NCBI GenBank assembly: GCA_903896545.1
Contig: CAITYF010000161.1
Coordinates: 124,001 to 188,000, forward strand
DNA: 64,000 nt
From: an uncultured Myxococcales bacterium
GTDB lineage: Bacteria > Myxococcota_A > UBA9042
Direction of reading: 5' to 3'
Below the pieces are notes generated by a model. The model worked only from the letters and a program-made list of their open reading frames with translations. It was not told where the DNA came from and did not search any database. Within the stretch, counting starts at the first letter, position 1, and every line of letters begins with the position of its first letter. Of the stretch, positions 9,019-56,884 are shown one piece after another. Both the position numbers and the translations under genes were made by a program.

Positions 9019-9124
9019 CGCAACTCCTTTCGATTGGCAGGCGAGCCAAACAAAGCGTGCGCTCGGACTGGGGGAGGGTCAACGGCTCCAATTGCGGAAG
9101 CAGCGTGAAATCCTCGTCAATTCG

Positions 9125-11242
9125 TCAGGGAATTGTCACGTTCGCGCCTTCTTGCACCGCGCGTTCGGGCACCTGCACATCGCGCGTTTGCCCGCCAAAG
9201 GTCACACGCCAAGGCGAGCGCGCGACCAAACCGTACGGCATGTCCTGCGTGGCATAGGGCACTTGAAGCGTGAACCGACCGGCCGCGTCCGCCTGTCCGA
9301 CTTGCCGGAACACAAAGGCGGGCGGCCCCGGGTGCTTGATCTCCACCGTCGCAGTGACCAACGTCCCCGCGGGCGCTTGCCCCACAAGCCGCGCACCGCG
9401 TACGCGCTCAAAGAGTGCAATCTCGCGCAGCGGTCCGCGCACCTGGCCCTGCCAAAGCGACGGGAGCTCCAAGGGCGAGACGTGGACGCGACGCAGCGTT
9501 CCGGTGCCGACGGCAGAACCGCGTGCCGTCCCCGCGTCGAGCAGTAACCGCGTTCCCACGTAGGCCAGCGCGTGCTCGAGATCGGGGCGCTGCATGCCGA
9601 TTTCCTCGGCGTTGGCGGTGAGCACTGACCACGGGGTCGCCATCGTCCACAACCAACGCACTTGGCGTCGCTGCAGCACAGGTTCGGCACGCGCGAAGTC
9701 GCTTGCGAGGAGCACACGCATGGCGTCCTGCAGCGCGTCGCGCTCTTTTAGTTCTGTGAAATTGCTGGCGATGACCGGTTGGCCCGTCACGTGCAAGATC
9801 TTGTGCCCCACGTCCCACGGCGCGAGCACACAACGGTTGCCCGTGGACGGTGGCGGCAGGCGGTCGCGCATCCAGACGAGCATGCGCCAGACCGATTCCT
9901 CGTGCGCGCTCCAGTGATCGGCCTCAACGAGCGGCGGTACGAGCGTCAAGACGCTGAGGGCGCCCAGCACCGCCAGCGTTCGTCGCAATACGACCGCTTG
10001 CAGCGTCAGCACCGCCGACCACGCCAGCACGTACGGCACGGCAAAGACGAGGCCAAAACGCGTTTGCAGGAGCGCGAGCGCCGCCGTCGCGACGTAGAGC
10101 CAGATCAGCCAATGGCGCCGTAGAGGCGGCAGGTGTGCAAACCCCAGTGGCAGGAGCGGCAGCAGCACAACCGCGCCACCCAGGACGAAGAACGGCTGCG
10201 GCAGTGGCTGACGCCAGAAAGGCTTGCTTTCTTCGATCGTGGCGACCATGCCCGCACGCCCGGAAAAATCGAGCAGCGCAGCGAACGCGTGGCGCATGTC
10301 CGTGTCCGTCAGCGCGGCCAGCGCAACAGCCGCGGCACCGGTGAGCGCCGCCAACGCCAACGCACGCGAGCGCTTGTCTGCGTCCGGACCGATGCCGGCG
10401 AGACCTGCGGTCAACGCTGCCACAAAGCCACCCAGCAGCCACAGCGTGAACCGCGAGGGTGCGTGCGGCGCGACGAGACCGTGCACGAAATACGGCGCCT
10501 GAACGATGACCGGCGTCGCCAGCAGCGCACCCAGCCCCACAGCCAGTACCATCGCGCGCAGCACGCCGCGGCGGTCGGGACCTGCGGGAAGCGCCGTCGT
10601 CGCGGTCAGAAGCGCTGCGGCCGTGACAACGAGTTCGGCGATCCACGCCTCCGTCATCAGTGCGTGCCCCAAGCCGAGGATGACACCCAGCAGCAGGGTT
10701 TCACGCCGCGCGGGCCTGTCCAGAAGCGCGTCGACCGACCACGCGAGCGCCGCCAGCCAGAGGCCGAGCAGCATGTGGTGGTCGACAAAGCCAAAAGCCG
10801 TGTACCAGATGTGCAGCGGCAGCAGACCCAACAGCAGTCCCGCCAGCAGACCTGCTAGCGCACCGAGCCACGCGGTCGCGAGCGCCCAAGTCGCAGCCGC
10901 CGTCACAACGCCCGCGACGACCGGGGTCCACGCGGCCAGCCGCTCGACGTCGCGGACCGGCGCGCTCGCGGGCAGCACCAGGTGAGCCAGACCCGCAGTG
11001 AGCCGCTCGATGCCGCCCGGCCACGGCGGAACTGTGCCTTCAGGGCAGCCCAGACCGGCGTCCCGATCGGGCACATGGGGGAAATTCTGATACGTCGCGA
11101 CGATGCGCCGCAGGTAATAGTGCGAGTCTGACGAGACGGGGCGCACAGTGCCGTCGGGCTGCCGCATCGCGGACGTACCCACAACGCGTGCCGTCAGCGC
11201 GACCGCCACAACGACGATCAACGCGCCCAGACGTCGCCCCAT
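9125..11242 (-). CDS. STT3/PglB-type oligosaccharyltransferase homologue
   Basis: A 705-residue GT66-family membrane protein. Enzymes of this family move a lipid-linked glycan to Asn of secreted proteins. Visible signature elements: the first acidic motif SSDSHYYLRR (Asp39), FVDHHM (154-156), the external-loop Glu in TIEE (335-338), and PWDVGHKI (475-482) in place of the canonical WWDYG. About 11-13 membrane segments are followed by a periplasmic domain and a final beta-rich region of about 100 residues. The ATG at 11242 is chosen because GGAG lies six bases upstream; a GTG precedes it directly. It starts 3 bp after the RNase D stop, so the two form an operon. The glycan and targets are unknown. 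Confidence 0.85.
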   Translation of the reverse strand: MGRRLGALIVVVAVALTARVVGTSAMRQPDGTVRPVSSDSHYYLRRIVATYQNFPHVPDRDAGLGCPEGTVPPWPGGIERLTAGLAHLVLPASAPVRDVERLAAWTPVVAGVVTAAATWALATAWLGALAGLLAGLLLGLLPLHIWYTAFGFVDHHMLLGLWLAALAWSVDALLDRPARRETLLLGVILGLGHALMTEAWIAELVVTAAALLTATTALPAGPDRRGVLRAMVLAVGLGALLATPVIVQAPYFVHGLVAPHAPSRFTLWLLGGFVAALTAGLAGIGPDADKRSRALALAALTGAAAVALAALTDTDMRHAFAALLDFSGRAGMVATIEESKPFWRQPLPQPFFVLGGAVVLLPLLPLGFAHLPPLRRHWLIWLYVATAALALLQTRFGLVFAVPYVLAWSAVLTLQAVVLRRTLAVLGALSVLTLVPPLVEADHWSAHEESVWRMLVWMRDRLPPPSTGNRCVLAPWDVGHKILHVTGQPVIASNFTELKERDALQDAMRVLLASDFARAEPVLQRRQVRWLWTMATPWSVLTANAEEIGMQRPDLEHALAYVGTRLLLDAGTARGSAVGTGTLRRVHVSPLELPSLWQGQVRGPLREIALFERVRGARLVGQAPAGTLVTATVEIKHPGPPAFVFRQVGQADAAGRFTLQVPYATQDMPYGLVARSPWRVTFGGQTRDVQVPERAVQEGANVTIP

Positions 11243-11245
11243 CAC

Positions 11246-20069: not shown

Positions 20070-20216
20070 GGGAATTCTTCGAATTCCCAACCTCTGAGCT
20101 TGATGTTTGATCCCGCGGCCGAGAATCGCCTGAAGTGAATTCAGGCGGTTTCAGCCGCTGCCCGTCCGCAGCCGCGGTCTGGGAGAGCCTGCGAAGACAA
20201 GCTTTCACAGGCTCTC
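20070..20216 (+). repeat. 147-bp palindromic intergenic repeat, copy A
   Basis: By-eye alignment with the reverse complement of 54451-54597 is gap-free over 147 bp with about 15 mismatches (roughly 90 % identity). Hairpins: GGGAATTC-TTC-GAATTCCC at the left; GCCTGAA-GTGAA-TTCAGGC in the middle; and a long imperfect stem from GAGAGCCTG to CAGGCTCTC at the right. It ends 45 bp before the O-antigen ligase start and encodes no transposase. The outermost stem present in copy B is missing its left arm here. Confidence 0.85.
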
Positions 20217-20260
20217 ACGCGCGCTTTTGCCCTCGCTGGCTACAGCCCAGGAGCTTGTTC

Positions 20261-22981
20261 GTGTCCAAGAAAATCCGTAATCGTCCCGAAGACTTGAAGT
20301 CCACTTCTACTGCGGAATCCGACGCCCCCGTCGTCCGCAAGGTTGTGCCCGTTGCGCCGCGCCCGCTGACCGTCAACAGCGAAGAAGACTGGAAAGATCA
20401 CGTCCTTCCGCTGCTTTTGGGCTTCATCTGCGCGTACTTGCCCTACAAGGTCGAGCCGCACATTCGCGATCTGTTCCAGTTGCCCAAGCAGATGATCATG
20501 GCCGAAGCCGCGGCGTGGCTCGTGCTGCTGGCCGGTGCTCTGGCGCTTGCCGGGCGTCCGCTGAAGCTGCCCAAGACGCCGATGATCTGGCCAGGGCTGG
20601 TGCTCATGCTCGCGATCGCGGGCGGCGTCTACATCGCGCCGCAGCAGACCGGCGGCGTGCTCTCGATTTTTGCCCGCATGGACGCGCACCGGTGGGTGTC
20701 GGCGGCGGTGATCTTTGTGATCGCGCTCTTGAGCCTGACCACGCCGAAGCGGCTCTGGTACATCATCGCGGGCAACTTGTTGGGCGGCCTTCTGGTATCG
20801 CTCATCGGCATTGGCGAGCAACACAACATTCGCGGGCTGCTGCCTGACCCGCACTGGAACCTCATCACGATGCCGGGCTCGACCTTTGGCAATCGCAACA
20901 TGGCGGCCCAGGAGATCGTTGCGGTGATGCCCGCGGCGTACGTCGTGATCATGCTCTGCGTGCGCTGGATTCTGACTGGTCGTGTCTGGCAGGGCCTTGT
21001 TCTGGGCATTTCGTCGGCCATCGGCCTCATCACGATGCTCTACTTCCTTGTGCTCACGGTCACGCGTTCGGCGTGGCTGGGCGCGGGAGCGGGCGTGGCT
21101 GTGGCGGCTGGCGTGCTTCTCGTTGGCGTCTTGTGGCGCGCACGTCGCGACGCTTTTGCTGAAAGTCAGGAACGGTCAGGACTTTCCGCGCTGTTTGGCG
21201 CGTCGACGCGCAACGTATTGAGGACGGCAGCGGGCGTGGCCATCACGCTGTTGACGATCGTCGCCGTGGCCGACCACTTCAAGCCCGCGGATACCGGCGC
21301 TTCGGCCGACGACAAGAAGAAGATGTCGGTGCCCGAACTCTTCAAGTCCTTCTTTGACAGCAAGGCGAACCACTACCGTTGGCGCATCGGCATGGCCGAA
21401 TCGACTGTCGAAGCGATCAAGAAGAAGCCGCTGGGCGGCGGCGCGGGCAACTGGCGCGTGATCTATCCGCAGTACGTGACGCAGCGCGAAAAGAACGAGA
21501 TGTTCAACATCGCCAAGCAGCCGATCCGCGCGCACAACGACTTCCTGCAGTTTGGCTCGGAATTTGGCGTACACGGTCTGCTGGCGCTGCTCACGCTGTT
21601 GGGCATGGCGGCTTGGATGACACTGCGGACGGTGCGAAAAGCGGCATCTTCTGACGACAAGGATCAGGACGACGCGGCTTGGCTGGCGTTTTGTGCGCTG
21701 GCCTCGTTGGCGTCGCTCGTGGCGATCTGCGGCGACGCCATGGCGTCGTTCCCGCTGCAACTGCCTGGACCTACGTTTCTTTTTGCCTTGCATTTGGCGA
21801 CGATCGCTAGCGCGGAGGCGATCCTCTACAAACGCGGCTTCTTCGGTGACGGCGAGAACCGCACCGTGGTCACGCCGATGTGGCTGGGCGGCGGCGTGCT
21901 GGCAGCCGGCGTGATCGGCCTGAAATTCCTCGGACCGATCTACCTGGTGCCGGGCGACGTGCACCTGGACACGTATCGCAGCTTGTCGGTGGAAGAAGCC
22001 AAGGAAAAAGGCCTGCACCAGCGCTGGCTTGTGGCGGAACTGGGCTTTACCGATGGCCGCGCGCTGCAAAAAGGCGGTCGTGCACAGGCGGGTCTGCTGG
22101 CGATTCAAAGGGCGATCGCGCTGAACCCGGACGACTTCCAGAATCACTTCATTGAAGGCCTGAACCTGAACAGCCTGGGTCAGACCAAGGGCGCGATCAC
22201 GAGCATCGAAAACTCGCTGAAGCTCTATCCGAACCTGCTGAACGCTTGGGTGAATCTGGCGATGTTCAACCGCCGCTTGGGCGACGACAAGAAGATGAAC
22301 GAGGCGATCGACATCGCGATGAAGTTGAAGCCCGACGAGCTGATCGCGCTGAACGTGCGCGCGGCTTGGCTGGAGGAAAAAGCCGAATACGCGACAGAGC
22401 TGAAGATTCTGAAGCCGCAGATCAAGCCGTACGCGGAATACCGGCTCTCGCCGAATTGGCCGACCGATGACAACGGGCAGCTGCTGGGATCCTGGAAGAC
22501 GACGCTGACGCACTGCGTGACGGCGGCGCGCAAGTCAGAACAGTGGGCGGATCTGGCGGACTTCTTGACGCTTCTCTACGCGGAGCCCGTGGCCAACGAC
22601 GGCCGGTCCGAGGAACAGAAGGACAAGGAGAAGATGGATCGCGCAACGGATCTGGGCGAGGTGTTGGGCAAGCTTGGCCGTTGGAACGAGGCGCTGCCGC
22701 ATTTCAAGGAAGCCGCGGAACTGGCGCGCGCGCAGTACCCGGATCAGAAGAAGAACTACGCGCTGGCGCTGATTTACAACGACGGCTTTGCCGAGGCGCA
22801 GCACCAGATGCAGGTCGCGCTGCAGGTCGGGATGACCAAGGACAAGGCCGGCGAACTGCTGGACGAATGGGCGAAGGGGCTGCCCGCCAAGGCGGCGGAG
22901 ATTGGCAAGATCCGCGAGAAAGTTGTCGGCAAGCCGGCCGCACCAGTACCCGCAGCCGCGGAAGAGTTGAAAACACCGTGA
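20261..22981 (+). CDS. O-antigen ligase/polymerase-like membrane protein with TPR tail
   Basis: A 906-residue protein. The GTG at 20261 has AGGAG eight bases upstream; the open frame to 20135 reads repeat sequence. About 12 membrane segments (50-610) include MPGSTFGNRNMAAQE, typical of the Wzy/WaaL O-antigen ligase family, and a long periplasmic loop with the family-like RAHNDFLQFGSEFG. The last 300 residues are TPR repeats (AINPDDFQNHFIEGLNLNSLGQ type). Such proteins polymerise or ligate surface glycans at the inner membrane. The stop overlaps the rluD start as GTGA. The substrate is unknown. Confidence 0.88.
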   Translation: MSKKIRNRPEDLKSTSTAESDAPVVRKVVPVAPRPLTVNSEEDWKDHVLPLLLGFICAYLPYKVEPHIRDLFQLPKQMIMAEAAAWLVLLAGALALAGRPLKLPKTPMIWPGLVLMLAIAGGVYIAPQQTGGVLSIFARMDAHRWVSAAVIFVIALLSLTTPKRLWYIIAGNLLGGLLVSLIGIGEQHNIRGLLPDPHWNLITMPGSTFGNRNMAAQEIVAVMPAAYVVIMLCVRWILTGRVWQGLVLGISSAIGLITMLYFLVLTVTRSAWLGAGAGVAVAAGVLLVGVLWRARRDAFAESQERSGLSALFGASTRNVLRTAAGVAITLLTIVAVADHFKPADTGASADDKKKMSVPELFKSFFDSKANHYRWRIGMAESTVEAIKKKPLGGGAGNWRVIYPQYVTQREKNEMFNIAKQPIRAHNDFLQFGSEFGVHGLLALLTLLGMAAWMTLRTVRKAASSDDKDQDDAAWLAFCALASLASLVAICGDAMASFPLQLPGPTFLFALHLATIASAEAILYKRGFFGDGENRTVVTPMWLGGGVLAAGVIGLKFLGPIYLVPGDVHLDTYRSLSVEEAKEKGLHQRWLVAELGFTDGRALQKGGRAQAGLLAIQRAIALNPDDFQNHFIEGLNLNSLGQTKGAITSIENSLKLYPNLLNAWVNLAMFNRRLGDDKKMNEAIDIAMKLKPDELIALNVRAAWLEEKAEYATELKILKPQIKPYAEYRLSPNWPTDDNGQLLGSWKTTLTHCVTAARKSEQWADLADFLTLLYAEPVANDGRSEEQKDKEKMDRATDLGEVLGKLGRWNEALPHFKEAAELARAQYPDQKKNYALALIYNDGFAEAQHQMQVALQVGMTKDKAGELLDEWAKGLPAKAAEIGKIREKVVGKPAAPVPAAAEELKTP

Positions 22982-34202: not shown

Positions 34203-34231
34203 TCAATACTTTGTGCGTTTTGGCTTGTCAA
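34203..34231 (-). promoter_or_regulatory. dnaG promoter P2
   Basis: On the minus strand TTGACA (34231-34226), a 17-bp spacer and TATTGA (34208-34203). It is about 69 bp upstream of P1 and points the same way. Tandem promoters are usual for the dnaG-rpoD operon in other bacteria. Confidence 0.55.
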
Positions 34232-34347
34232 GGGGTCTGCACATCTTTGTCAAGAGGCGCGATCTCGGCTCCTGCGCGTTTGCCACCCCCGACAGCCATG
34301 CTAGACTTCAACCCCTTTTGCGCGTCCCGCGCCAAGACGAGCCGACC

Positions 34348-37300
34348 GTGTCCGACCAATCGCTTTTCTCCAAAGCAGCTGCAGCCGATCGTCACTGGTG
34401 GTGGCTTACGCCGCTGCTGTTGTCGCTCCTGATTCTGCCGGGCTTGGGCTCGGCGGGTTTGTTGGATCCGTGGGAGATGGACCGCGCGGCGGTGGCCCGC
34501 AAAATGGCCGCGGTTCCGGCAGTTTTGGTCGTCGAGCCGGGTCAGGGTCACCTGCTGGAAACGATCAACAAGCAGGCGGGTGGGCGCTACGCATTGGCGC
34601 ACCCGTTTGACCAAAAAGACGCGACGGCAGGGGCGGCCATGCAGCTGGCCGTGGCGCGTGCCGGTCGGCAAGTGGCGCACGCGGTGGTCGTCGATCTGGA
34701 CGCGGTCGTGTCAGGTGCGGATGACAAGCAGCTGAAGGCGATGGCGGGGCACCTCGCAACGCTCGAAGCGCAAAACCGCAGCACGGCGATTCTCCTCGTT
34801 TCGTCCGGCAAGGACTTGGACCGCGTGCGCTGGCCGCTCGCGCTGTCGCGCGCCCATCAGCTCGCTGAGACGTTTCGCGGTTCGGCCGTCCACAGCATTT
34901 TTGAGCCGGAATCGCAAGAAATCGTGCTCGCGCCGCTCTTCTTGACGACGCTGGACGTGGTGGCTCCTGCCAACGTGCAGACCGCTCTCGACGCCCGCTG
35001 TCCGTCGCCCATGACGATGCCGGCTTTCAAACAGGATTCCGTCTCGGTCTCCGCGCCTTGGCTGGATTCGGCGCTCGCCGCTCTGGCGATCAGGGTCTTT
35101 GGCGTCAACGAGTTTGCCGTGCGTTTCCCGGCGGCACTCTTGGCGATTCTGGTCGGCTGGGCCCTGGTCTTTACCCTGCGGCGGCTGTGGCGGCCGCGCA
35201 CGGGTTGGCTGGCGCTGGCGGCGTACGCCACGTTGCCGATGACGTGGGGATTGGCACGCACGCTGACGCTGCAGGCGACCGAGTCTGCGGGCCTCGCGCT
35301 CTTTGCCTTTGGTCTCGCTTTGGGCGCGCAACGCGCGGCGCGTGCGTGGCCGGTGCTCGCGGTCCTTGGCCTCGCGCTGCTGGCGGGCGGCGCGGGCATG
35401 GGCGGCCTCGCAACTGCCTGCGTCATCGCGTTCGGTGTGATTCTCGCGACAGGTCAGGTTCGCGGCGCGCTTGGCGCGGGCGCACTTCTGGCCGGCGTGG
35501 CCACCGCGGTGCTGGCAGCAGCGGTTTATACGGGCGACCCTGAGAGCCTGCTCCTGCGCAGTTTCCGCCTCACTTCATGGCCGTTTGGCGGCGGTCCCGA
35601 TCAGGTTCACCGCGATTTTGCGTGGGTCATCGGTCAGGTCGGCTTCGGCCTGTACCCGTGGAGCGCGATCGTCGTTCTGGGCGCGGGCAAGTTGCTCACC
35701 GACGACGAAGAAGGCGCGGATCGCCAGCGCGCGCGCGCCGTGCTGCTGATCGCGCTTGTCGCCAGCTTGGTCGTCAACGCGCTCCTCATCCACAAGTTCG
35801 CGCATTTCGTTGCGCCCGCTGGACCTCTGGCTGCCGTTGCTGCGGCTGTGCTCCTCCACGCTTTGCTGGCAGGCACGGTTGGCGGCCGTACGGTCGCCAT
35901 CTTTGCTGTTCTGGCGACGCTGCTCTTGCACCGTGAGATTGGCAAGGGCGCTGAGGCGGTCGTTCGTTTCATCGTCTTCGATCCGCCATTTTCTGGCGGT
36001 TCGGGCAACCATCCGTGGCCGGCTGAGTTGGACATGCCGCGCGCACTTCGCGCCATTGCGCTCCTTTCCGTGCTCGCTTTTGCGCTGGGTGCCGCGCGTC
36101 CGGCGGAGACGATTCGCAACGCTGCACAGAAGCTACGCACCGCGACAGGTGCCGCTTGGGCGTTTGGCGTCATCGGCATCTTGTGGGCGCTGGACGCGAT
36201 CATCTCGTTGGGCACCAAGCTCGACGTCATGTTGAAGACGCTGGCGACGACGTGGAACTACCCGTACGACCGCATTTGGGTGACGATCCTCGGTATTCGC
36301 CCTGAAATCATCGCCGGTGCGGTCCTCTTCTTCACGCTTTTGCTCTACGCCATTCTGACGACGGTGGGTCCGCGCGCGCTGAACCGTGTGACGACCTTGC
36401 CGCTGCGTCTGGCGCGGCCTTTTGCGTCCCCGGTGCTCAGTTTGTCGCTGGCTGCCGTTGGCGCCGCCGCTGTGCTGTTTGGCGGCGTGGCTCGGCTCAC
36501 GGAGGTCTCCCACGTTGGTGCTGGTCAGGCGATCGTCGTGGGTCTGCAGTCGCTCGCGTTTATTTTCCCGCTGCTGGGGCTCATCAAGCTGGCTGTGCTG
36601 AAGGCGTTGGTCAAGCCGGGCGGGTTCCTCGACCCGGAAGCTGAAGACGACATGTTGCAGCCGCTTGCCTTTGGCCTGACCCGCGGCACCGCGCTGATTT
36701 TCGGTTTTCTTGGTCTCTGGGCGCTCGCCGGCCTCGGCATCGGCGCGGGGCAAGCATCTGGCACCTGGAACTGGCCGTACCTACTCGGGATGTGGCTGTT
36801 GGCGATCGCCACGCTGCTGACGGTCATGGGCGTGGCGCAGGACAAGGCTGCGGGCTACGGCTACCCGCTCGTGACGATCGGCTTCACGGTTTTTGCGACC
36901 GTCATGGGGCCGATGGGCGCCCGCTACATGGATGAAACGCTGCAGGCCGCCATCAAGGGTCAGGAAGGCGCGGCACTGAAAGACGGCGTGAAGTACCTCG
37001 TCCACGTGCTCCTGACGGCGCCGGATACGGGCGCGTTTGTGGTGCTGGCGCTGGGCGTGCTCGTCAATCGCTTGGCTGGCAAGAAGCCGCTGGCGGCACG
37101 GCTTGTGGGCTGGGGGCTGACGGGCGTGGATCGCTTGGAACAGCCGCGGGTCGCAGCGCTGGCGCTGATTGTGGCGGGCACCGTCTTCACGGCTGGCTAT
37201 AGCTGGTCGCTGCTGCCGGGCTTGTCGGTGCACTATTCGCAAAAGCACCTGTTGAACCGCATTGCGGAGGCGCAGGGATTGCAGAACGGCGCGACCGGAC

Positions 37301-38460
37301 CGCGTACGTTTACGCATGGTTCGGCCAAGACGGGCGGCGAGAGCAACTTTTACACCGCGTCGATTCCGCAAATCGACGATCGGCCGTCGGTCCTGGCGCT
37401 TCTGGCGGACAAGAACGTGGCGGTGTGGGCCAGCGATGCGATGGAAGGCAAGCGCGTCGGACCGTTGGCGCTGCCGGGCTGGTCAGCCGCTGTGGATGCC
37501 AACCACGACGGCCAACGCGACGCGCCCGGTTGGTTTGGCGTTGCACAAGCGGTGGATGGCGCGCGCATTGACCTCAATGGCATGGGTGTCGGTTTGGCTA
37601 CGGGCATTGGCACGCCGGGCGACTGGCGCGGCGCGCAATTTGTCGGCCCCAGCGGCACGCCGCGTTCCGTCGTTAGCTACGATGGCCGTTGGCTCACGCT
37701 CGACGGTGCCCCGGAATTGGTCGCTGGAGATCCGGTCAAGGGCGCTTTTTCGATCGACAAATTGACCAACGTGGCTGAGTCCGCTTCGCACAGTGGCCAA
37801 AAGTCGGAACAGCGCTTTGTTGTCGTTCCAAAGGACGCGTTCTCCGAGCTCAATCACGCGTTTCGCGAGGCGTACGGCCGACATATCGCCGTGATCGACG
37901 CGGCATCCTCCCGCTTGGTCCTGACGGCCAATCACCTGGCGGCGGGTCAAGCGGACCAGAACTGGCTGAAGAAGGCGCTGCTGACTCAGGCGGAATTCAA
38001 CGCGCTTCCCGGCGTGAAGAAGGTCTTTGCCAACTTCGACAACAGCATTCACCTGATCGGCTTCAAGATGGCCGAATACTCCGTGCAGCGTTCAGGCAAG
38101 TACAAGATGACGCTGTACTGGAAGGTTGTGAAGCCGACGGCGACGTCGTGGAAGCTGTTCATGCACCCGCATCCGCTGAACGCGGACCGTTGGCCGCTGA
38201 CCGATCCGGACAACAGCGAGGATGAAAACAAGCCGTGCAGCGGCTGCTTTGCGACCAACCACTGGATGCAAGGTGACATCATCGCGGACAGTTTCGAGCA
38301 GGAAGTCGCGCTGGGCACGCAGTCGGGGCCCAACGACATCATCATGGGCTGGTACAACCCATCCAGCGACACGCGGATGCCGCTGCTTGCCGCGAGCGGT
38401 CAAGGCGTCGTGAAGCACGGCGACAACCGCGTGACGATCGGCCAGATTCAAGTGCGCTGA
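34348..38460 (+). CDS. giant ArnT/PMT (GT39-like) membrane glycosyltransferase
   Basis: A 1370-residue protein. Near the N-terminus, after the first membrane segment, lies GLLDPWEMDRAAVARKM. It resembles the first-loop acidic motif of ArnT/PMT-type enzymes, which use polyprenyl-linked sugars. A soluble insert of about 200 residues follows, then SAPWLDSALAALAIRVFGVNEFAVRFPAA (a typical second family block). Many membrane segments follow in two clusters, up to about residue 960. A C-terminal soluble domain of about 400 residues ends with CSGCFATNHWMQGD. The GTG at 34348 is chosen because upstream codons lack coding character. Acceptor unknown. Confidence 0.82.
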   Translation: MSDQSLFSKAAAADRHWWWLTPLLLSLLILPGLGSAGLLDPWEMDRAAVARKMAAVPAVLVVEPGQGHLLETINKQAGGRYALAHPFDQKDATAGAAMQLAVARAGRQVAHAVVVDLDAVVSGADDKQLKAMAGHLATLEAQNRSTAILLVSSGKDLDRVRWPLALSRAHQLAETFRGSAVHSIFEPESQEIVLAPLFLTTLDVVAPANVQTALDARCPSPMTMPAFKQDSVSVSAPWLDSALAALAIRVFGVNEFAVRFPAALLAILVGWALVFTLRRLWRPRTGWLALAAYATLPMTWGLARTLTLQATESAGLALFAFGLALGAQRAARAWPVLAVLGLALLAGGAGMGGLATACVIAFGVILATGQVRGALGAGALLAGVATAVLAAAVYTGDPESLLLRSFRLTSWPFGGGPDQVHRDFAWVIGQVGFGLYPWSAIVVLGAGKLLTDDEEGADRQRARAVLLIALVASLVVNALLIHKFAHFVAPAGPLAAVAAAVLLHALLAGTVGGRTVAIFAVLATLLLHREIGKGAEAVVRFIVFDPPFSGGSGNHPWPAELDMPRALRAIALLSVLAFALGAARPAETIRNAAQKLRTATGAAWAFGVIGILWALDAIISLGTKLDVMLKTLATTWNYPYDRIWVTILGIRPEIIAGAVLFFTLLLYAILTTVGPRALNRVTTLPLRLARPFASPVLSLSLAAVGAAAVLFGGVARLTEVSHVGAGQAIVVGLQSLAFIFPLLGLIKLAVLKALVKPGGFLDPEAEDDMLQPLAFGLTRGTALIFGFLGLWALAGLGIGAGQASGTWNWPYLLGMWLLAIATLLTVMGVAQDKAAGYGYPLVTIGFTVFATVMGPMGARYMDETLQAAIKGQEGAALKDGVKYLVHVLLTAPDTGAFVVLALGVLVNRLAGKKPLAARLVGWGLTGVDRLEQPRVAALALIVAGTVFTAGYSWSLLPGLSVHYSQKHLLNRIAEAQGLQNGATGPRTFTHGSAKTGGESNFYTASIPQIDDRPSVLALLADKNVAVWASDAMEGKRVGPLALPGWSAAVDANHDGQRDAPGWFGVAQAVDGARIDLNGMGVGLATGIGTPGDWRGAQFVGPSGTPRSVVSYDGRWLTLDGAPELVAGDPVKGAFSIDKLTNVAESASHSGQKSEQRFVVVPKDAFSELNHAFREAYGRHIAVIDAASSRLVLTANHLAAGQADQNWLKKALLTQAEFNALPGVKKVFANFDNSIHLIGFKMAEYSVQRSGKYKMTLYWKVVKPTATSWKLFMHPHPLNADRWPLTDPDNSEDENKPCSGCFATNHWMQGDIIADSFEQEVALGTQSGPNDIIMGWYNPSSDTRMPLLAASGQGVVKHGDNRVTIGQIQVR

Positions 38461-49015: not shown

Positions 49016-50830
49016 ATGTCCCCTTTCGGGCTGCGTGGTTTGGCCGTATTGGTGCTTGCGGTTTTTCTGATCGGGTCGCCGGTGAGTTGGGCTGCCGGTA
49101 AGCGCGGCAAAGCGGTACATGCTGCGGCACATGCCAAGAAATCGGCCAAGCGAGGCAAAGAAAGTCGGCAAAAGGCGCCGCTAGCGGCCACGCCCGCGCT
49201 CGCACCTGCGCCTCCGCCAGCGCCCGCGCGGCGACCGACATCTGCGGCGGTTGTGCCCGTGGCATTGCCCGCGCCCGTGACGCCCGTCACGGCAGTTTCC
49301 CTGCCGGTTGCGTCGACACCTGCGGTCGCCGTTGCCAAGCCCGTCGTCGTGAAGCCCGCGCCAGCAGCGCCGAGCAAACCCGCCAAAGCGGTCAAGCCGA
49401 CGGCCAAGGTCGCGCCTGCAGTTGCCTTACCTGGTGCTGCGACCGCCACGGCAGCGCAACCGGTCGCCTTGCCACAGGGTGCTTCGCCACCGGCGGCCGT
49501 TGGGCTGCCCGGTCACCCCACGCCCAGCGCGCACGCCGCTGTCGAGCTGCCCGCACATCCCACCGCGACGACCGCGCCTGCGCCGCCGCGCGCCAAGCCA
49601 CTCCCGACGCCGGTCGCCACGGCGTGGGCGCTCCCCCAGGTGCCTCAGGCCAAGCTGCAGAGCGATCTGAAATTTCAGTCGATTATCCGGCTGATTCAGG
49701 CCAGCAAGTTCAGCGAAGCCCTGGCTGAAGTCGACGCGCTGCTGGAAAAGAGCCCCAACGACGACGAACTGAAAGTGCAGCGCGCGCGCCTGTTGTACTG
49801 GCTGGATCGGCGGCAGGCTTCGCGTGAGTATTTGGCCCCTGTGCAGGCTCGCCATCCGGAGGACGCGGAAATTCGCGAGTTGGACGCCCAGCTGAAGCTT
49901 GCCGACGGCGACATCGTGGGTGCACTGGCGCAGTACCGTGCGCTGGAAATCGCCGGTGACGGGCGGCCGGAGCTGCACCAGCGGATCATCGACTTGTCGC
50001 TGGAGTTGGACGAAGGCGCCGCGGTGACGAAGTCGCTGAAGTTTGGCGGCCATCTGAGCGACGAACAGGAAATGGCCTACACGCGCATGGTGCACCCGTG
50101 GTTTGTCGACGTGGCCGGTGCCTCGACGTTGCACAGCGGCTCTGCGTGGTGGCGTGCCGATGCCCATTTGGGTCGGCGGATCAACAAGCGGTGGAGCGCG
50201 CTGTTGGGCGCCATCTACGAGCAGCGTTATTCCGGCGTCGATCTGGAGCGCGCCGAGGCAGTCAAAGGTGAGTTGTACTTTGGTTTCAGCCGCATCGACG
50301 GCATGTTGCACCTCGAATCGTCGCCCAATAAGGCGTTCCTGCCGATCTTTGACGGCCGCCTCGATCTGGGTTTTTCCATCATCAAAGAATTGTCCGTCGG
50401 CGTGTATGGTCGCTACGCCCGCTACGCGACGACGCCCACTTCACAAGTTCTGCCCTCGACGGCTTGGTCACTGGCGCCTAACCTGATCGTGTACTGGAAG
50501 GAATGGACGTTCCAGCCGGGCTACATGCTGATCAATCTCGACCCAAGTCTCACGACGACGACCACCTACTACCACACGGGCTTCTTGAAGGCGCGTTGGG
50601 AGCCGACCCCGCGCTGGATGGCTTTTGCGTGGCTGTATCTGGGCACCGACCCGACTTTTGTCGAGCGCTACGGCGTTCGCACGCCCGTCGGTACGTCGAT
50701 GGTGCTCGGCGGCGAGCACTGGTGGACCCCGCGCTGGGGCACGCGCGCTTCGATCGCCCGTACCCAGCCTTTTGACAGCAAGAACGATCCGTTCACGGAA
50801 TTCACCGTCGTCCTGCGAGGTCGGCTGTGA
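49016..50830 (+). CDS. secreted TPR protein with YaiO-like outer-membrane barrel
   Basis: A 604-residue protein. Signal peptide of about 27 residues; a Pro/Ala/Val-rich low-complexity stretch to about residue 205; TPR-like repeats (SKFSEALAEVDALLEKSPND, then GALAQYRALEIAGDG), about 215-330. The last 230 residues consist of alternating amphipathic strands with aromatic ends (RWSALLGAIYEQRYSG, ELSVGVYGRYARYA, SMVLGGEHWWTPRWG), ending in VVLRGRL. This is the layout of YaiO/PgaA-like polysaccharide export proteins. Upstream in-frame starts exist to 48887; ATG 49016 is chosen for the signal peptide. The stop overlaps the HEAT gene start (GTGA). Confidence 0.8.
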   Translation: MSPFGLRGLAVLVLAVFLIGSPVSWAAGKRGKAVHAAAHAKKSAKRGKESRQKAPLAATPALAPAPPPAPARRPTSAAVVPVALPAPVTPVTAVSLPVASTPAVAVAKPVVVKPAPAAPSKPAKAVKPTAKVAPAVALPGAATATAAQPVALPQGASPPAAVGLPGHPTPSAHAAVELPAHPTATTAPAPPRAKPLPTPVATAWALPQVPQAKLQSDLKFQSIIRLIQASKFSEALAEVDALLEKSPNDDELKVQRARLLYWLDRRQASREYLAPVQARHPEDAEIRELDAQLKLADGDIVGALAQYRALEIAGDGRPELHQRIIDLSLELDEGAAVTKSLKFGGHLSDEQEMAYTRMVHPWFVDVAGASTLHSGSAWWRADAHLGRRINKRWSALLGAIYEQRYSGVDLERAEAVKGELYFGFSRIDGMLHLESSPNKAFLPIFDGRLDLGFSIIKELSVGVYGRYARYATTPTSQVLPSTAWSLAPNLIVYWKEWTFQPGYMLINLDPSLTTTTTYYHTGFLKARWEPTPRWMAFAWLYLGTDPTFVERYGVRTPVGTSMVLGGEHWWTPRWGTRASIARTQPFDSKNDPFTEFTVVLRGRL

Positions 50831-51906
50831 ACAATTTCCGCCTCGAACTGCTCACGCTGCCTGAGCTCCTCATCATCTTGTTCGTGACGCTCGAGCTCAT
50901 CATCGTACTCGTGGCGCTGACGGCGATGTTGATCGTGCGTGGCCGCGCAATTCGCCGTGAAAAGGCGTTTCAGGCGACCCGCGCGACGTTGCTGGAGTCC
51001 ATCCAGCGCATGACCGGCTTGGAGCCAGATCCGACGGCCAAGTCCAAGGCGCTCGCGGCGTTGGGCGCGTTGTCCCGCGACTTTGCCCGGCGTCTGCTCA
51101 CGGAAATGGCCGAGCTTGCCGGTCCAGGCGGAACATCGGCGTTTGAAGAACTGTACGCAGCGTCCAACCTCGCCGTCGAAGCGCGTGCCAACGCGGTTGC
51201 GCGGCCGTGGGAACGCCTGCGCGTGATCCGTGAAGCGCGCGCGCTGCACGACCCCGCGCGTCTGCTCGCTGGTTTGGTGCGCGATGAAGTGCCGGATGTG
51301 CGTCTGGGTGCCTTTGAGGCCCTGTGCGCGCTGAGCCGCGCCGATGAAGCGGTGGCCGCGATTCCGCTTCTGGCGGCGGACGGTCGTCTGAACCGCGTGC
51401 GCGCGATCGACGCAATGTCGGTCGCCAGCCCGTTGCCGGTGCAGTCGCTGGTGGAATTGTCGAATTCAGAAATCGCCGACGTGCGGCAGATCGTCGTCGC
51501 GGTGCTTGGCAACGCGCGCGTACGCCAAGCCGTGCAGGTGGTCGTGCACGCCGTGACCGATCCAGAAGCCGAAGTCCGTATTCAGGCGGTGAAAGGCCTG
51601 CGCGAGATGGGTGACGCCTCGGCGTTGCCCGTGTGCCTCAGCGCGCTCCAGGACGAACGCTGGGAAGTGCGGTCTGAGGCCGCGCGCACCTGTGGTGCTT
51701 TGGGCGGCGGCGGCGCGGCAGAGTCAATCGCCGTGCTTTTGGATGACGAAGCCGAGTGGGTCCGTCACAATGCATCGCTCGCGCTTTCGCGTTGTGGTCC
51801 CGCCGGCATTGCCGCGCTTCGTTCTGCTGCTGCTCGTGGCAACGAATCCGCGTCCAGCGCGCTGGCGGAAGCCCGTCTGTCCGTTACGGAAGATTCTTTG
51901 GTCTAG
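50827..51906 (+). CDS. membrane-anchored HEAT-repeat protein
   Basis: A 359-residue protein with one N-terminal membrane segment (about 10-38) and a cytoplasmic helical-repeat domain. HEAT units are clear in the second half: DVRLGAFEALCALSR, EVRIQAVKGLREMGD, EVRSEAARTCGALGG and WVRHNASLALSRCG. It is probably a scaffold at the inner membrane. It is coupled to the barrel protein before it by GTGA overlap, and the GT2 synthase starts 47 bp later, so it likely organises or regulates that synthase. Confidence 0.82.
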   Translation: MNNFRLELLTLPELLIILFVTLELIIVLVALTAMLIVRGRAIRREKAFQATRATLLESIQRMTGLEPDPTAKSKALAALGALSRDFARRLLTEMAELAGPGGTSAFEELYAASNLAVEARANAVARPWERLRVIREARALHDPARLLAGLVRDEVPDVRLGAFEALCALSRADEAVAAIPLLAADGRLNRVRAIDAMSVASPLPVQSLVELSNSEIADVRQIVVAVLGNARVRQAVQVVVHAVTDPEAEVRIQAVKGLREMGDASALPVCLSALQDERWEVRSEAARTCGALGGGGAAESIAVLLDDEAEWVRHNASLALSRCGPAGIAALRSAAARGNESASSALAEARLSVTEDSLV

Positions 51907-51953
51907 TTCTTTTGGGTTCTTCACAGGTTTACGGAGGTTGAGAGAACGCGCGC

Positions 51954-54452
51954 ATGTTGATGGATATCTTCAATATCCTTGTGCTTCTCTACTTCGTGTT
52001 GCTCACGTCGGGCTACATCGCGCTTTTTGTCGCGGCTTCCGTCGGCATCATCCAGGTGCGCCGTGACCTGGAGGGCAGCTCGCCGGAATCCGTGTCGATG
52101 CGCGGTCGCGCGACGCTGCCCATTTCCATTTTGGTGCCCGCCCACAACGAAGAAAAAACGGTGGTGGAGTCGGTCCGCGCACTCCTGAAGTTGCGTTACC
52201 CCGAACACGAAGTGGTCGTGGTAAATGACGGTTCGTCGGACAAGACGATGAAACGTCTGCGTACAGCGTTCGCGCTGGAAGCGGTGCCCATCGACATTCG
52301 CCTCGATTTGCCGTGCAAACCGATTCGCGCGACCTACCGCTCTGCAATTTACAATCGCCTGATCGTCATTGACAAAGACAACGGCGGTAAGGCCGACGCC
52401 TTGAATTGCGCGATTAACGCGAGCCGATTTCCGCTGGTGTGCGCCATCGACGCCGACACGCTGATTTTGCCCGACGCACTTCTGCGCCTCGTCCGCCCGT
52501 TCCTGACGGACGTCGACGTCGTCGCGGTCGGTGGCACGATTTGCCTCGCAAACGGCTGCACGATTGAGCGCGGCGCCGTCGTCGAAATGGGCTTGCCCAA
52601 GTCCTGGCTGGCGCGTTTTCAAGTGGTTGAATACCTGCGCGCCTTCCTCGTCGGACGCTTGGGCTGGGACCGCATGGGCGGCAACCTGATTATTTCTGGC
52701 GCTTTTGGCCTGTTCCGCCGCTCCGCAGTGACGACTGCGGGTGGCTACGCGCACGACTCCGTCGGTGAGGACATGGAGCTGGTCGCGCGCCTGCGCCACC
52801 AGATTCCGCAGTGGCTGCAAGGTCGCGCGATCGCGCACCTTCCGGATCCCGTCGCGTTTACGGAAGCTCCAGAAAATATTCGCATTCTCGGCAACCAGCG
52901 CGACCGCTGGCAGCGCGGCTTGGCTGACACGCTGTGGCGTCACCGCAAAATGGCGTTCAACCGCCGCTACGGGCCGATTGGCCTCGTGGTGATGCCGTTC
53001 TTCATCTTTTTTGAACTGTTCGGGCCGATCATTGAGATGTTCGGCTACTTCTACTTCGTGCTGATGCTCGTCGGCGGCTTCATCGAGCCCGTCTTCACGA
53101 TTCTCTTCCTGATCCTCGCGGTCCTCATCGGCTTCCTTCTGTCCTTGGGCGCGATTTTGCTCGAAGAACTCTCGCTCTCGTTCTTCCGCGAACGCGGCGA
53201 CTTGTGGCGTCTCGTGTCCGTCGCGCTACTCGAAAACATGGGCTATCGCCAGCTCATTTTGTGGTATCGCCTCCGTGGGCTCTGGGGTTACCTCCGCCGT
53301 CGTAAGACGTGGGGCCGCATGACGCGTCTCGGTTTCGCCGGCGGTACGGGTCCGCGTGGTGGCGAACAGCGTTCGAGCGCTTTGCCGATTTTGACCACGC
53401 TCCTTTTGGCCGCCATCGTGATGCTGCCCGTCGGTTGGCTGATCAAGCCGCGCCCGACGGTCAAGCCGCAAATTCTCGACAAGACTGTGCCTTTTGAGAA
53501 TCGCCGCGAGCACTTGCGGTTGATGTGGTTGCTGACCCAGGCGAAGGTCCAACCGCCCAAGTCGCGGTTCATGTGGGACTCGGTGACCGATTACGTCGGC
53601 TGGAATCCGACGACCAAGGCGCACCGCGAGCTCGCCGACGAAGATCTGAAAGATCGCAATTTGCTGTTTATTTCCGACACCTATGGTGTGTACGTCGACG
53701 ACTATGACGCGATGCCGCGGCCCGTGGCGCACTTGGAGTTGTCCAAGCGCATCTTCGGCGGTCTGACGGACGCGGAAATGGACGTCATCGAGCGTTTTGT
53801 CGCGCGCGGTGGTCGAGTCTGCGGCGAGTTCAACACATTTGCCACGCCCACGCCGTACAGCGCGCGGTTGCGGGCGGAGAAAGTCTTCAACATCAAGTGG
53901 TCCGGCTGGGCCGGGCGCCGCGTGGACGACTTCTCAGACGACCGCGAAATCGCGCAGTGGGTGCAAAAGCGCTGGGCCGAAGAGACGGGACGCCCGTACG
54001 ATCTAGAAGGTCCAGGAATTCTGCTGATTCACGAAGATGGGCGCGTCGTCTGTCTGCAAGAAGAACTGGATATTCCCAAGAACCCGCTGGTGCTGACCCA
54101 CGGCCCGGATTCCGTGCCGGTGACCTACTGGTTTGACATCAACGAGGCCAACGACCCGAAAGAAGTGCGCGCGACCTACAAGCTGCACACGATGGAACCC
54201 GGCATGGTGCTGCTGTCCAAGTTTGGCATCCCAGACGCATTCCCCGCGATCGTCTACGACGACAAGATGAAGCATACGTACCTGGCGGGCGACATGACGG
54301 ATGCGGAGGCGAACCTCGGTCCGCCGTGGCTCGCGTTCATCCCGACCGTCCGCAAGTGGATGGCGCAAACGGGCATGGTGCCGGAGGACATCCGCCTGCT
54401 GTGGCGCGTCTATTCGCCGACCATCACGCGCGTCATCAACGGCGAGATGTGA
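51954..54452 (+). CDS. processive GT2 polysaccharide synthase fused to a periplasmic domain
   Basis: An 832-residue fusion. One membrane segment, then a cytoplasmic GT2 domain with VPAHNEE (61-67), VVVNDGSSDKT (88-98), DKDNGGKADALN (140-151), the DxD motif DAD (166-168), ED (272-273) and QRDRW (315-319). This set marks processive beta-glycan synthases such as PgaC, NodC and hyaluronan synthase. Membrane segments follow (about 341-410), then another at 477-496. The remaining 335 residues are predicted periplasmic, with RNLLFISDTYGVYVDD and DVIERFVARGGRVCGEF, recalling class I glutamine-amidotransferase-like folds. ATG start; repeat copy B begins at its stop codon. Confidence 0.85.
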   Translation: MLMDIFNILVLLYFVLLTSGYIALFVAASVGIIQVRRDLEGSSPESVSMRGRATLPISILVPAHNEEKTVVESVRALLKLRYPEHEVVVVNDGSSDKTMKRLRTAFALEAVPIDIRLDLPCKPIRATYRSAIYNRLIVIDKDNGGKADALNCAINASRFPLVCAIDADTLILPDALLRLVRPFLTDVDVVAVGGTICLANGCTIERGAVVEMGLPKSWLARFQVVEYLRAFLVGRLGWDRMGGNLIISGAFGLFRRSAVTTAGGYAHDSVGEDMELVARLRHQIPQWLQGRAIAHLPDPVAFTEAPENIRILGNQRDRWQRGLADTLWRHRKMAFNRRYGPIGLVVMPFFIFFELFGPIIEMFGYFYFVLMLVGGFIEPVFTILFLILAVLIGFLLSLGAILLEELSLSFFRERGDLWRLVSVALLENMGYRQLILWYRLRGLWGYLRRRKTWGRMTRLGFAGGTGPRGGEQRSSALPILTTLLLAAIVMLPVGWLIKPRPTVKPQILDKTVPFENRREHLRLMWLLTQAKVQPPKSRFMWDSVTDYVGWNPTTKAHRELADEDLKDRNLLFISDTYGVYVDDYDAMPRPVAHLELSKRIFGGLTDAEMDVIERFVARGGRVCGEFNTFATPTPYSARLRAEKVFNIKWSGWAGRRVDDFSDDREIAQWVQKRWAEETGRPYDLEGPGILLIHEDGRVVCLQEELDIPKNPLVLTHGPDSVPVTYWFDINEANDPKEVRATYKLHTMEPGMVLLSKFGIPDAFPAIVYDDKMKHTYLAGDMTDAEANLGPPWLAFIPTVRKWMAQTGMVPEDIRLLWRVYSPTITRVINGEM

Positions 54453-54605
54453 GAGCCTGTGAAAACTTGTTTTCGCACGCTCTCCCGGAGAGCGGCTGCG
54501 GGCTGGCAGCGGCTGAAACCGCCTGAATTCACTTCAGGCGTCGCTTGGCCGCTGCATCAAACATCAAGCTCAGAGGTTGGGAATTCGAAGAATTCGCAAC
54601 CTCTG
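54451..54605 (-). repeat. palindromic intergenic repeat, copy B
   Basis: The inverted partner of the element at 20070-20216 (147 bp aligned without gaps at about 90 % identity). It begins inside the TGA of the GT2 gene. At its right end it has a complete hairpin, CAGAGGTTG and CAACCTCTG, enclosing GAATTCGAAGAATTC. The next gene starts 18 bp further on. It could serve as an RNA end or stabiliser for the GT2 transcript; no T-tract is present. Confidence 0.85.
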
Positions 54606-54622
54606 AACACCGCCGCACCTTG

Positions 54623-55912
54623 ATGCCGAGATCTGGCCACTTTCACTGGCTCTGTGCGGGCGCGCTGCTCCTGTGCGCGTGCGGGACAACGCGGATGAGG
54701 CGTCAGGACGTGCCCGCGCGCTGCGAAGACCCCGATGCCCGCGCAGTGCTGAACGCCGCCCGCTCGTCGCTGGTCTTTTCGCCTTATCGCCCCAAGAAAG
54801 TCTATGATCTGGACGCCAATGGCCGTGCAGTGCTGTTCCAGCCGGGGCGCCTGTCGGCAGACGCGCTTGCCATTCTCAGCTACCCCGATCCGCAGCGGTT
54901 TGCCGGAGGCGACAGCGACTTCCATCGTTTGGCGCAGCGCTCGTTTGTCTACGACGACGCGCTCGCGGTGCTCTGGCTCACCCACGACGGCGATCTGGAT
55001 CGCGCTCGACGTGTACTGGCGACGTTGGCTGCGCTGCAGCGTCCCGACGGCGCGTGGGGCTTCGGCTTCGGTGCGGGGCCGGAAGACGGGTTCTACAACG
55101 CCGCGTATGTCCGGACAGGGACGGTGGCGTGGGTCGTCTACGCGCTCGCGCACTACCGCGTGGTGAGTCGCGATCCGCAGTTTGACGGCGTCGCCGAACG
55201 CGCCACGCGTTGGCTTCTCGCGCAGCGCGCGCCGGGCGACCCGCTCCTGCGCGGTGGGGCAGGACGCTGGCGCGACGCGGCGCATTTTGAGCCGGACTGG
55301 CGCGCGGACTTTGTCGCCACCGAGCACCAGGTCGACGCGTGGTTTGCGCTACGCGCCGCGAGTCGCGCGTGGCCAGAGCTGGCGCAGCGTCTGGATCTGA
55401 CGACCACCGCTCAACAGCTGGCGATCGCCATGCGGAGGTCGCTGTGGCTTCCAGAAGGTCGCTACGCCCAGGGTTTGGGACCTGCCGGTACACCCGACCG
55501 TGAGAGCGCGCTGGATGCTGCCGGAACGTGGACCGCGCTGTGGGAAATCGCGGAGGCGCGTCCCGAATACGCCCAGCAGATGCTGTCCTGGGTCACGCGT
55601 GTGCACGGGATCGACGTGGACGGCTGGCCCGGGCTGCGCCCGTATCGCGACGCGCCGCCGGAGACGTGGTTTGTCGAAGGAAGTGTCGCCTTGCCGCTCG
55701 CGTACAAGCGCCTTGGCCTGATGGAGACGGCGAGGCAGCGTTGGCAACCGCTCGTGCAACTCGCCTGCGCTGCTGGCCTCCCCCTGGTCTACGCGCCCAA
55801 CTGGCACGCCGATTTTCCGTTCACGCCGGCCGCCGCGCCCACGCTTTGGTTGCTGCTCGCGGGTCAGGAGATCGTCGAAGGCGGAGCGCCGTGGCTGTGG
55901 GCAGAGCGGTAG
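54623..55912 (+). CDS. lipoprotein resembling (alpha/alpha)6 glycosidases
   Basis: A 429-residue protein. The signal peptide ends in a Cys-rich lipobox region (LLLCACG). The mature part is made of helix pairs with aromatic and acidic residues at the turns: FVYDDALAVLWL, LQRPDGAWGFGF, ATEHQVDAWFALRAA, DAAGTWTALWEIAEA and WFVEGSVALPLAYKRLG. This pattern is typical of six-hairpin glycosidase-fold proteins, and the Asp/Glu in YDD and TEH would be candidates for the active site. ATG 54623 is chosen; the frame upstream reads the repeat. Its position after the synthase suggests trimming of the polymer. The enzyme class is inferred. Confidence 0.65.
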   Translation: MPRSGHFHWLCAGALLLCACGTTRMRRQDVPARCEDPDARAVLNAARSSLVFSPYRPKKVYDLDANGRAVLFQPGRLSADALAILSYPDPQRFAGGDSDFHRLAQRSFVYDDALAVLWLTHDGDLDRARRVLATLAALQRPDGAWGFGFGAGPEDGFYNAAYVRTGTVAWVVYALAHYRVVSRDPQFDGVAERATRWLLAQRAPGDPLLRGGAGRWRDAAHFEPDWRADFVATEHQVDAWFALRAASRAWPELAQRLDLTTTAQQLAIAMRRSLWLPEGRYAQGLGPAGTPDRESALDAAGTWTALWEIAEARPEYAQQMLSWVTRVHGIDVDGWPGLRPYRDAPPETWFVEGSVALPLAYKRLGLMETARQRWQPLVQLACAAGLPLVYAPNWHADFPFTPAAAPTLWLLLAGQEIVEGGAPWLWAER

Positions 55913-55945: not shown

Positions 55946-56884
55946 ATGACGACTCCGCTTCTCGATTTCAAACGTTTTCCCGGTCGGCGCTGGTCTCTCG
56001 GTTTTTCCGCCGAGATGCGCGAGACCTTGGAGAGAATCCCCGACATGGCGACCGCCGTGCGCGCGCGGTGGGCCCAACATGTGCGGGCGCGAACTGACGA
56101 TATTCTGCTCTTTGCCACGGCTGAAGACGCCATGCGCGCCGCGGTACACGCGCTGCTTGCGCCGAACGACGTGGTCCTGCTGGCTCGTCCGCTGCCGCCC
56201 GATTGGATCGCGTGCGTGCTGCAGGCTGGCGCGCGGTACGTCGACGTCGGCCGTCGCTACGACGGGTTTGCCCAGACCGGTGGTTGGAATGTCGCAGCCG
56301 CCCAACGCGCCGCCGCTGCACACCCGGAGGCTGTTGCCATCGCCGAGACGTGCACGTGGGGCGGCGCGGATGACGCAGCCGTTGCCGCTGCGCTTCCCCT
56401 GCGCGCGTTCATCAAGGATGCCCGCAACACCCTGCATTGTCTTGGGCCCGTGTTGGGTCTGGAGCGCGCCACGGTGACGCTCGTCGCACTCCGCGACCCC
56501 GACGCGCCGTCACCGGCCGTTCTGTACGCGCTCATTGCACCCGACCAGCACGGGGCAGCGTTGCGCGCCGCCGTTGGGCCCACCGCGGTTCCGGCTGTGC
56601 TGGCTGAACACGCGTTTGCTGTGCTGGAGGGGGTCGATCGTGACCCGACTTGGGCGGATCGCGCCATCGCACGGATCACCGAACGCAACGCTGCGTGGCG
56701 AACGGCGCTTGCGGGACGCCCCGGTGTAGAAGTGCTCCCTCCCGCTGGGACGGAGGCCGCTGCCCTCTGTTTAGGTGGCGACGGGGACGCGATCGCCGCT
56801 GATTTGGTTGGGCAGTTTCTGACGGTGCGCGCGTGGCCGACAAGTGCGATGCGCGCGCTTTTGACGGCAGATCTGGCACGTTAA
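55946..56884 (+). CDS. aminotransferase-fold-like protein, probably degenerate
   Basis: A 312-residue cytoplasmic protein. The middle resembles the large domain of fold-type I PLP enzymes (HisC/CobC group): FATAEDAMRAAVHALLAPNDVVLLARPLPPDW, then AIAETCTWGG and FIKDARNTL where the cofactor-binding segment should be. The usual S-x-x-K lysine context is not evident, so it may be inactive or misassigned. ATG start, 33 bp after the glycosidase-like gene and on the same strand. I put the family at about one in three. Confidence 0.5.
   Translation: MTTPLLDFKRFPGRRWSLGFSAEMRETLERIPDMATAVRARWAQHVRARTDDILLFATAEDAMRAAVHALLAPNDVVLLARPLPPDWIACVLQAGARYVDVGRRYDGFAQTGGWNVAAAQRAAAAHPEAVAIAETCTWGGADDAAVAAALPLRAFIKDARNTLHCLGPVLGLERATVTLVALRDPDAPSPAVLYALIAPDQHGAALRAAVGPTAVPAVLAEHAFAVLEGVDRDPTWADRAIARITERNAAWRTALAGRPGVEVLPPAGTEAAALCLGGDGDAIAADLVGQFLTVRAWPTSAMRALLTADLAR

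Follow-up and report, generated by a model that had tools for sequence, protein, structure and literature searches.

A probable polysaccharide synthesis and export locus built around a HEAT-repeat protein and a GT2 synthase with a fused GATase1-like tail in an uncultured Myxococcales bacterium

What is made, and by what route does it leave the cell, at a locus where a glycosyltransferase family 2 (GT2) synthase carries a large C-terminal tail and is encoded between a HEAT-repeat protein and a putative lipoprotein? The locus lies in a stretch of 64,000 nucleotides from an uncultured Myxococcales bacterium (contig CAITYF010000161.1, positions 124,001 to 188,000), which we refer to as the window, and it consists of four genes in a row on one strand, in the order that an earlier note made from the sequence alone had described. 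We consider it probable that the four genes encode a machine that makes and exports a surface polysaccharide by the synthase-dependent route and belongs to an uncharacterised HEAT-GT2 type, and the architecture supports the synthesis and export role proposed in that note. The machine is ordinary in outline; of its features, the HEAT-GT2 core deserves more attention than the fusion of the tail to the synthase, which is a local variant of it. The genes and their parts, in positions of the window, are as follows.

49016-50830, + strand: gene 1, open reading frame (ORF) for a secreted TPR and barrel protein of 604 amino acids (ORF coordinates, Pfam, NCBIfam)
50827-51906, + strand: gene 2, HEAT protein of 359 amino acids with a GTG start and a membrane anchor (ORF coordinates, Pfam)
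51954-54452, + strand: gene 3, GT2 synthase with fused tail, 832 amino acids (ORF coordinates, Pfam)
51954-53342, + strand: GT2 synthase domain and membrane helices, residues 1-463
53388-53444, + strand: extra hydrophobic segment at the synthase-tail junction, residues 479-497
53448-54449, + strand: tail with a GATase1-like fold and without the catalytic Cys, residues 499-832
54623-55912, + strand: gene 4, putative toroid lipoprotein of 429 amino acids (ORF, predicted fold)
55946-56884, + strand: ORF of 312 amino acids without a Pfam match, which follows in some relatives and lies outside the core

The GTG start of the HEAT gene overlaps the TGA stop of the barrel gene by 4 bp, 47 bp separate the HEAT and GT2 genes, and 170 bp (54453-54622) separate the GT2 and lipoprotein genes. 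By eye, this last gap contains inverted-repeat-like letters, and the terminator scan has no entry there; the promoter and terminator scan was itself uninformative, with 2 promoter-like hits against 0.8 expected and 3 terminator-like hits against 8.2 expected.

The D, DxD, ED, and QxxRW motifs together with membrane helices are the hallmark of processive GT2 synthases, and gene 3 has all of them. It matches Glycos_transf_2 in Pfam (E 5.3e-20), has hydrophobic segments at residues 1-35 and 339-411, and contains D92, D96, D166, D168, E272, D273, Q315, R316, R318, and W319, each of which is invariant in 95/95 aligned GT2 relatives. Both the complete set of processive motifs and the additional membrane segment after the synthase, as claimed in the earlier note, are thus confirmed, and Pfam gives no PilZ match on the GT2. 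The enzyme would build its polymer from a nucleotide sugar at the cytoplasmic side of the membrane, with the chain pushed out between the membrane helices of the enzyme itself.

The partner of the synthase is encoded by gene 2, which matches HEAT_2 (E 1.1e-27) and has a membrane anchor, so that its description as a membrane HEAT-repeat protein stands. When 84,980 species genomes were scanned, 93 relatives came up, and in the best 80 of the 93 by likeness to the window's GT2 a HEAT gene lies directly upstream of the GT2 gene on the same strand at 71 loci (65/74 without the window's family), a count that describes this GT2 clade and not GT2 in general. The pair occurs in Bacillota and haloarchaea as well. 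Among the nine other loci, two have fewer than 600 bases upstream (L060, L098), one has a longer HEAT-bearing ORF adjoining the GT2 (L100), one has HEAT 1.5 kb upstream (L082), three have it 3-4 kb off on the other strand (L054, L056, L058), and two have none (L099, L115). One record in the set, CAMDBH010000018.1 (L043), is titled 'MAG: Klebsiella pneumoniae' and contains the whole myxococcal locus with 75% identity to the window's synthase; it groups with the window's family in the tree, and its organism name is very probably wrong.

Within the phylum, 282 evenly drawn genomes gave GT2 matches in 46 (E 1e-40), lipoprotein matches in 32 (E 1e-8), tail matches in 29 (E 1e-6), and HEAT matches in at least 27 (E 1e-15), and all the genomes with any of the last three fall among the 46 with GT2. 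The true HEAT figure is higher: by profile search, a HEAT gene also stands beside the GT2 at L134, L135, L138, L139, and L144, loci whose genomes are not among the 27. In the window's own family, 21 of 22 genomes, the window's included, encode barrel, HEAT, fused GT2, and lipoprotein together in that order; a contig end truncates the barrel gene in G003 and the lipoprotein gene in G020. The 22nd genome, G006, has a contig of just 3.6 kb here, with parts of the HEAT and lipoprotein genes on it. The barrel-HEAT-GT2 trio is therefore kept together, which the earlier note had named as one test of its proposal.

The probable orientation of the HEAT protein does not suit a periplasmic scaffold. A hydrophobic segment near the start is present in 67/71 HEAT homologues, and the side after this anchor is the more positive one in 64/67 of these, which indicates that the repeats are likely cytoplasmic. 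The protein thus probably serves the synthase from the cytoplasmic side, as its partner or as a switch, and as a near-constant neighbour anchored beside the GT2 it would probably hold or gate the enzyme. In several other organisms the gene of a diguanylate cyclase or of a response regulator lies nearby, and its product may supply the signal. Four of the 12 plasmid records found illustrate the arrangement by their annotation: Mesorhizobium ciceri (response regulator, YaiO barrel, HEAT, GT2), Haloarcula halophila (response regulator, HEAT, GT2, histidine kinase), Deinococcus radiophilus (TPR, HEAT, GT2), and Erythrobacter aureus (response regulator, TPR, HEAT, GT2), the TPR protein of the last scoring 43.9 bits, above the YaiO cut-off. 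GGDEF-receiver proteins are encoded just upstream in a Bacillus locus (L069) and nearby in a Gallionella locus (L085). In the window, the 6 kb on either side of the GT2 gene showed no ORF that belongs to the response-regulator cluster.

A hint to the product comes from a Brevibacillus locus (L118), where a nucleotide-sugar dehydrogenase (TIGR03026, 425 bits), GlmS (TIGR01135, 829.5 bits), and GlmU (TIGR01173, 581.4 bits), all above their model cut-offs, are encoded on the same strand after the GT2, with one further ORF between the GT2 and the dehydrogenase. These genes hint at a polymer of N-acetylhexosamine or N-acetylhexosamine-uronate in that organism; a hexosamine-containing polymer at the window's locus would be a guess by analogy. 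No study of such a HEAT-GT2 locus was found in full-text searches, titles, and starts of abstracts, although a mention inside a paper is possible, and bioRxiv and most subscription text lay outside the search.

The tail of the synthase has no Pfam match, and its profile gave no match to PDB sequences up to E 10. Its predicted structure has a defined GATase1-like fold, in agreement with the amidotransferase-like fold first proposed for it, and its nearest structural neighbours include many glycosidase accessory domains. No Cys is invariant and 15/34 distinct tails hold none at all, so that the catalytic Cys of a Cys-His-Glu triad is missing and amidotransferase chemistry is unlikely. Comparable domains are the CBM87 domain of the fungal deacetylase Agd3 and the trimerisation domains of GH42 enzymes, which likewise place a GATase1-like fold beside a carbohydrate enzyme, though only ~180-200 of the 334 residues of the tail align with them, and the window's tail is fused to a synthase. 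The CBM87 domain of Agd3 has a GATase1-like fold without the catalytic residues (PMC7229062). The charge (positive-inside) test gave no clear side for the tail (9/21 fused proteins); we propose that it lies on the periplasmic side, where it would bind, guide, or help process the emerging chain as a glycan-binding or processing domain at the exit, and its unfused homologues would act likewise beside the synthase.

The strongest competing explanation is that the tail is itself an enzyme, for example a glycan esterase, a transferase, or a transglycosylase helper, its Cys triad replaced by a non-canonical active site made up of conserved charged residues where the central strands end. It would account for the conservation of E519, H520, D575, R655, and D783 in 34/34 distinct tails and of K510, E625, and D780 in 33/34, and for the position of K510, D575, and E625, which in the model come after or at the end of the predicted strands 7-11, 72-76, and 123-127 (model residue 1 is residue 499). 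Set against this are the accessory nature of many of the nearest folds and the failure to recognise in the tail the catalytic motif of a known family, and we regard an enzymatic tail as a real but unlikely alternative to a glycan-binding or guiding one.

Full-length fusion of GT2 and tail is found in all 22 genomes of the window's family, the window's own included. The seven fused proteins of these 22 that entered a 95-row GT2 tree form one clade with a support of 100; the tree was a quick one, with 22 of 92 forks open, and only the fused clade is used here. Because the seven sampled proteins form one clade and 22/22 family genomes have the fusion, the fusion is most likely derived and arose once, in or before the window's family. 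Beyond that family, seven genomes of the phylum sample have the tail (G023, G078, G143, G179, G226, G273, and G278), each time as a gene of its own, which adjoins the GT2 in six and lies on another contig in G226. In G023 (locus L016), which belongs to another family, the five parts stand in unchanged order, with the GT2 and the tail encoded separately. Loci with a separate tail gene, usually beside the GT2, include L049, L053, and L136-L138, and such genes occur in Bacilli, where the tail can also be joined to a glycosidase-like protein whose glycosidase-like domain profile gave no match to PDB sequences up to E 1. Genome searches showed a tail for L069 and L049 but not for Brevibacillus (L118). 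The view that the system by design lacks a separate periplasmic component is therefore not sustained.

Further observations concern the tail and its neighbours. G014, a genome of the window's family, additionally encodes a free-standing tail and another GT2 that is likewise unfused, both away from the fused gene on two further contigs (L017, L018), and this second GT2 groups with the unfused-tail proteins in the tree. At L137 a glutamate-cysteine-ligase-family protein (8573-9952, GCS2 E 6.6e-53) follows the tail gene, and at L136, from the same family (f27), a similar-size ORF of 464 amino acids does so.

Export across the outer membrane would fall to gene 1, which has a signal-peptide-like start, a long Ala/Pro-rich linker, TPR repeats at ~226-317 (TPR_19, E 3.3e-6), and a C-terminal barrel at ~370-604. 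With the YaiO model TIGR04390 the barrel part reaches 29.6 bits (E 6.1e-7), just below the cut-off of 32, and barrel proteins from other genomes of the family match the same model in 5/5 cases at 17.7-27.0 bits (E <=0.0026), all below the cut-off. Comparison of the barrel profile with the YaiO-family profile (hhalign) gave 94.5% probability and E 7.5e-8 over 222 columns. These scores uphold the barrel that had been predicted for the first gene, and support a YaiO-type outer-membrane beta-barrel as the proposed exit, to which the TPR part would take the chain. A match to the TPR/barrel profile within 6 kb of the GT2 is seen at 0/25 loci of Bacillota, Izimaplasma, and haloarchaea and at 40/55 others, 33 of the 40 on the strand of the GT2; because this profile also covers the TPR repeats, a share of the 40 may be TPR matches alone, and the 55 include L045, a bin labelled Actinomycetes, which has no barrel match. 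The absence of the match where an outer membrane is missing fits the expectation for an outer-membrane exporter.

Gene 4 has no Pfam or NCBIfam match, ten members of its family gave only TPR_6 (E 0.0042) and GDE_C (E 0.065) in one member each, and lipoprotein profiles from two alignments gave no match to PDB sequences up to E 10. Its predicted structure is an (alpha/alpha)6 toroid, as in (alpha/alpha)6 glycosidases and GlcNAc 2-epimerase-like enzymes, MmpH being one of the enzymes matched, with conserved acidic residues D111, E234, D238, D298, and E352, and a lipobox-like N-terminus (LLCAC, ending at residue 20, by eye) makes it a putative lipoprotein. Of the glycosidase-like lipoprotein of the earlier note, the resemblance to a sugar enzyme holds at the level of fold, while sequence families gave it no match. 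We propose that it cuts or modifies the glycan chain; trimming as such is a guess from the fold.

The genes on both sides of the synthase bear on a second alternative, in which the GT2 makes a short oligosaccharide or glycolipid in the manner of NodC or HpnB, with no polymer for export, and the barrel exports something else. The NodC and HpnB models do match the synthase weakly, but QxxRW and the other processive residues are identical in all the aligned relatives, the TPR/barrel match disappears along with the outer membrane, and a sugar-toroid lipoprotein gene follows; we think this explanation improbable.

Slightly less probable still is that gene 4 has nothing to do with the trio beyond its position and encodes an independent enzyme. 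The 170-bp gap before it would suit such a reading, as would its presence in only 6/80 loci of the species-genome set, all from the window's family, and the ~6 kb between it and the GT2 in G154 and G255. However, all 32 of the 282 phylum genomes that encode it also have a GT2 match, and in families f1, f3, f18, f29, and f52 it lies beside the GT2, or next but one past a separate tail. At L134, L135, and L139 the lipoprotein gene follows the GT2 without any tail, so that tail and toroid are independent additions to one core.

Among known systems, the YaiP-YaiO locus of E. coli shares a YaiO barrel with a GT2 nearby, and the putative deacetylase YaiS is encoded close by. YaiP is, however, only 28% identical to the window's GT2 over 231 residues, the annotated genes of the stretch include no HEAT gene, tail, or toroid, and in E. 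coli K-12 yaiX, between the GT2 and barrel genes, is broken by IS2. The Bcs cellulose system and ydaJKLMN of B. subtilis combine a GT2 with an extracytoplasmic sugar enzyme, and the GGDEF genes near some HEAT-GT2 loci are a further likeness. No HEAT gene is known in ydaJKLMN, and ydaJKLMN (PMC13274460) is retained solely as an analogue. Cellulose synthesis is set aside by the CelA/BcsA model TIGR03030 (38 bits on the synthase against a cut-off of 699.1) and by the absence of a BcsB match (PF03170) in the window's own assembly (6.75 Mb in 272 contigs, 94.75% complete), with positive controls in E. coli and B. subtilis. As for a variant of the poly-N-acetylglucosamine systems PgaABCD and IcaADBC, which share a processive GT2 and a TPR and barrel exporter, PgaC_IcaA (TIGR03937) is the best NCBIfam match of the synthase and the TPR parts weakly match PgaA, but scores of 123.8 bits against a cut-off of 422.3 and of 14.4 against 366.65 (TIGR03939), the lack of any PgaB- or PgaD-like protein among the four genes in Pfam and NCBIfam, and the HEAT partner in their place make it very doubtful.

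Elsewhere in the window are an STT3/AglB-type oligosaccharyltransferase match (9128-11245, - strand; PF18079 E 4.3e-17, PF02516 E 1e-8), an O-antigen-ligase-type protein with C-terminal TPR repeats (20135-22978, + strand; Wzy_C E 3.3e-15), and an open frame of 1415 amino acids (34213-38457, + strand) for which Pfam at 1e-5 gave no match.

A broader and more tentative proposal, which in our judgement falls a little short of an even chance, is that HEAT-GT2 forms a distinct and as yet uncharacterised class of polysaccharide synthase machines, present in haloarchaea as in Bacteria. Here the role of PilZ, BcsB, or PgaD would be taken by a HEAT protein in the cytoplasm that gates the GT2 and is itself under phosphorelay control. 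Individual lineages would add an outer-membrane barrel, enzymes of toroid or TIM-barrel type, and an exit domain that is GATase-like and carbohydrate-active in a new way, which in the window's family would have joined the synthase. If this is true, one conserved gene pair would mark a polysaccharide machine across many phyla, and the HEAT partner would represent a control of processive GT2 enzymes other than PilZ/BcsB or PgaD. The fused tail would then offer a single-chain handle on the fate of the polymer at the exit of the synthase, and the tail and toroid lipoprotein families, which have no Pfam name, would gain a testable role.
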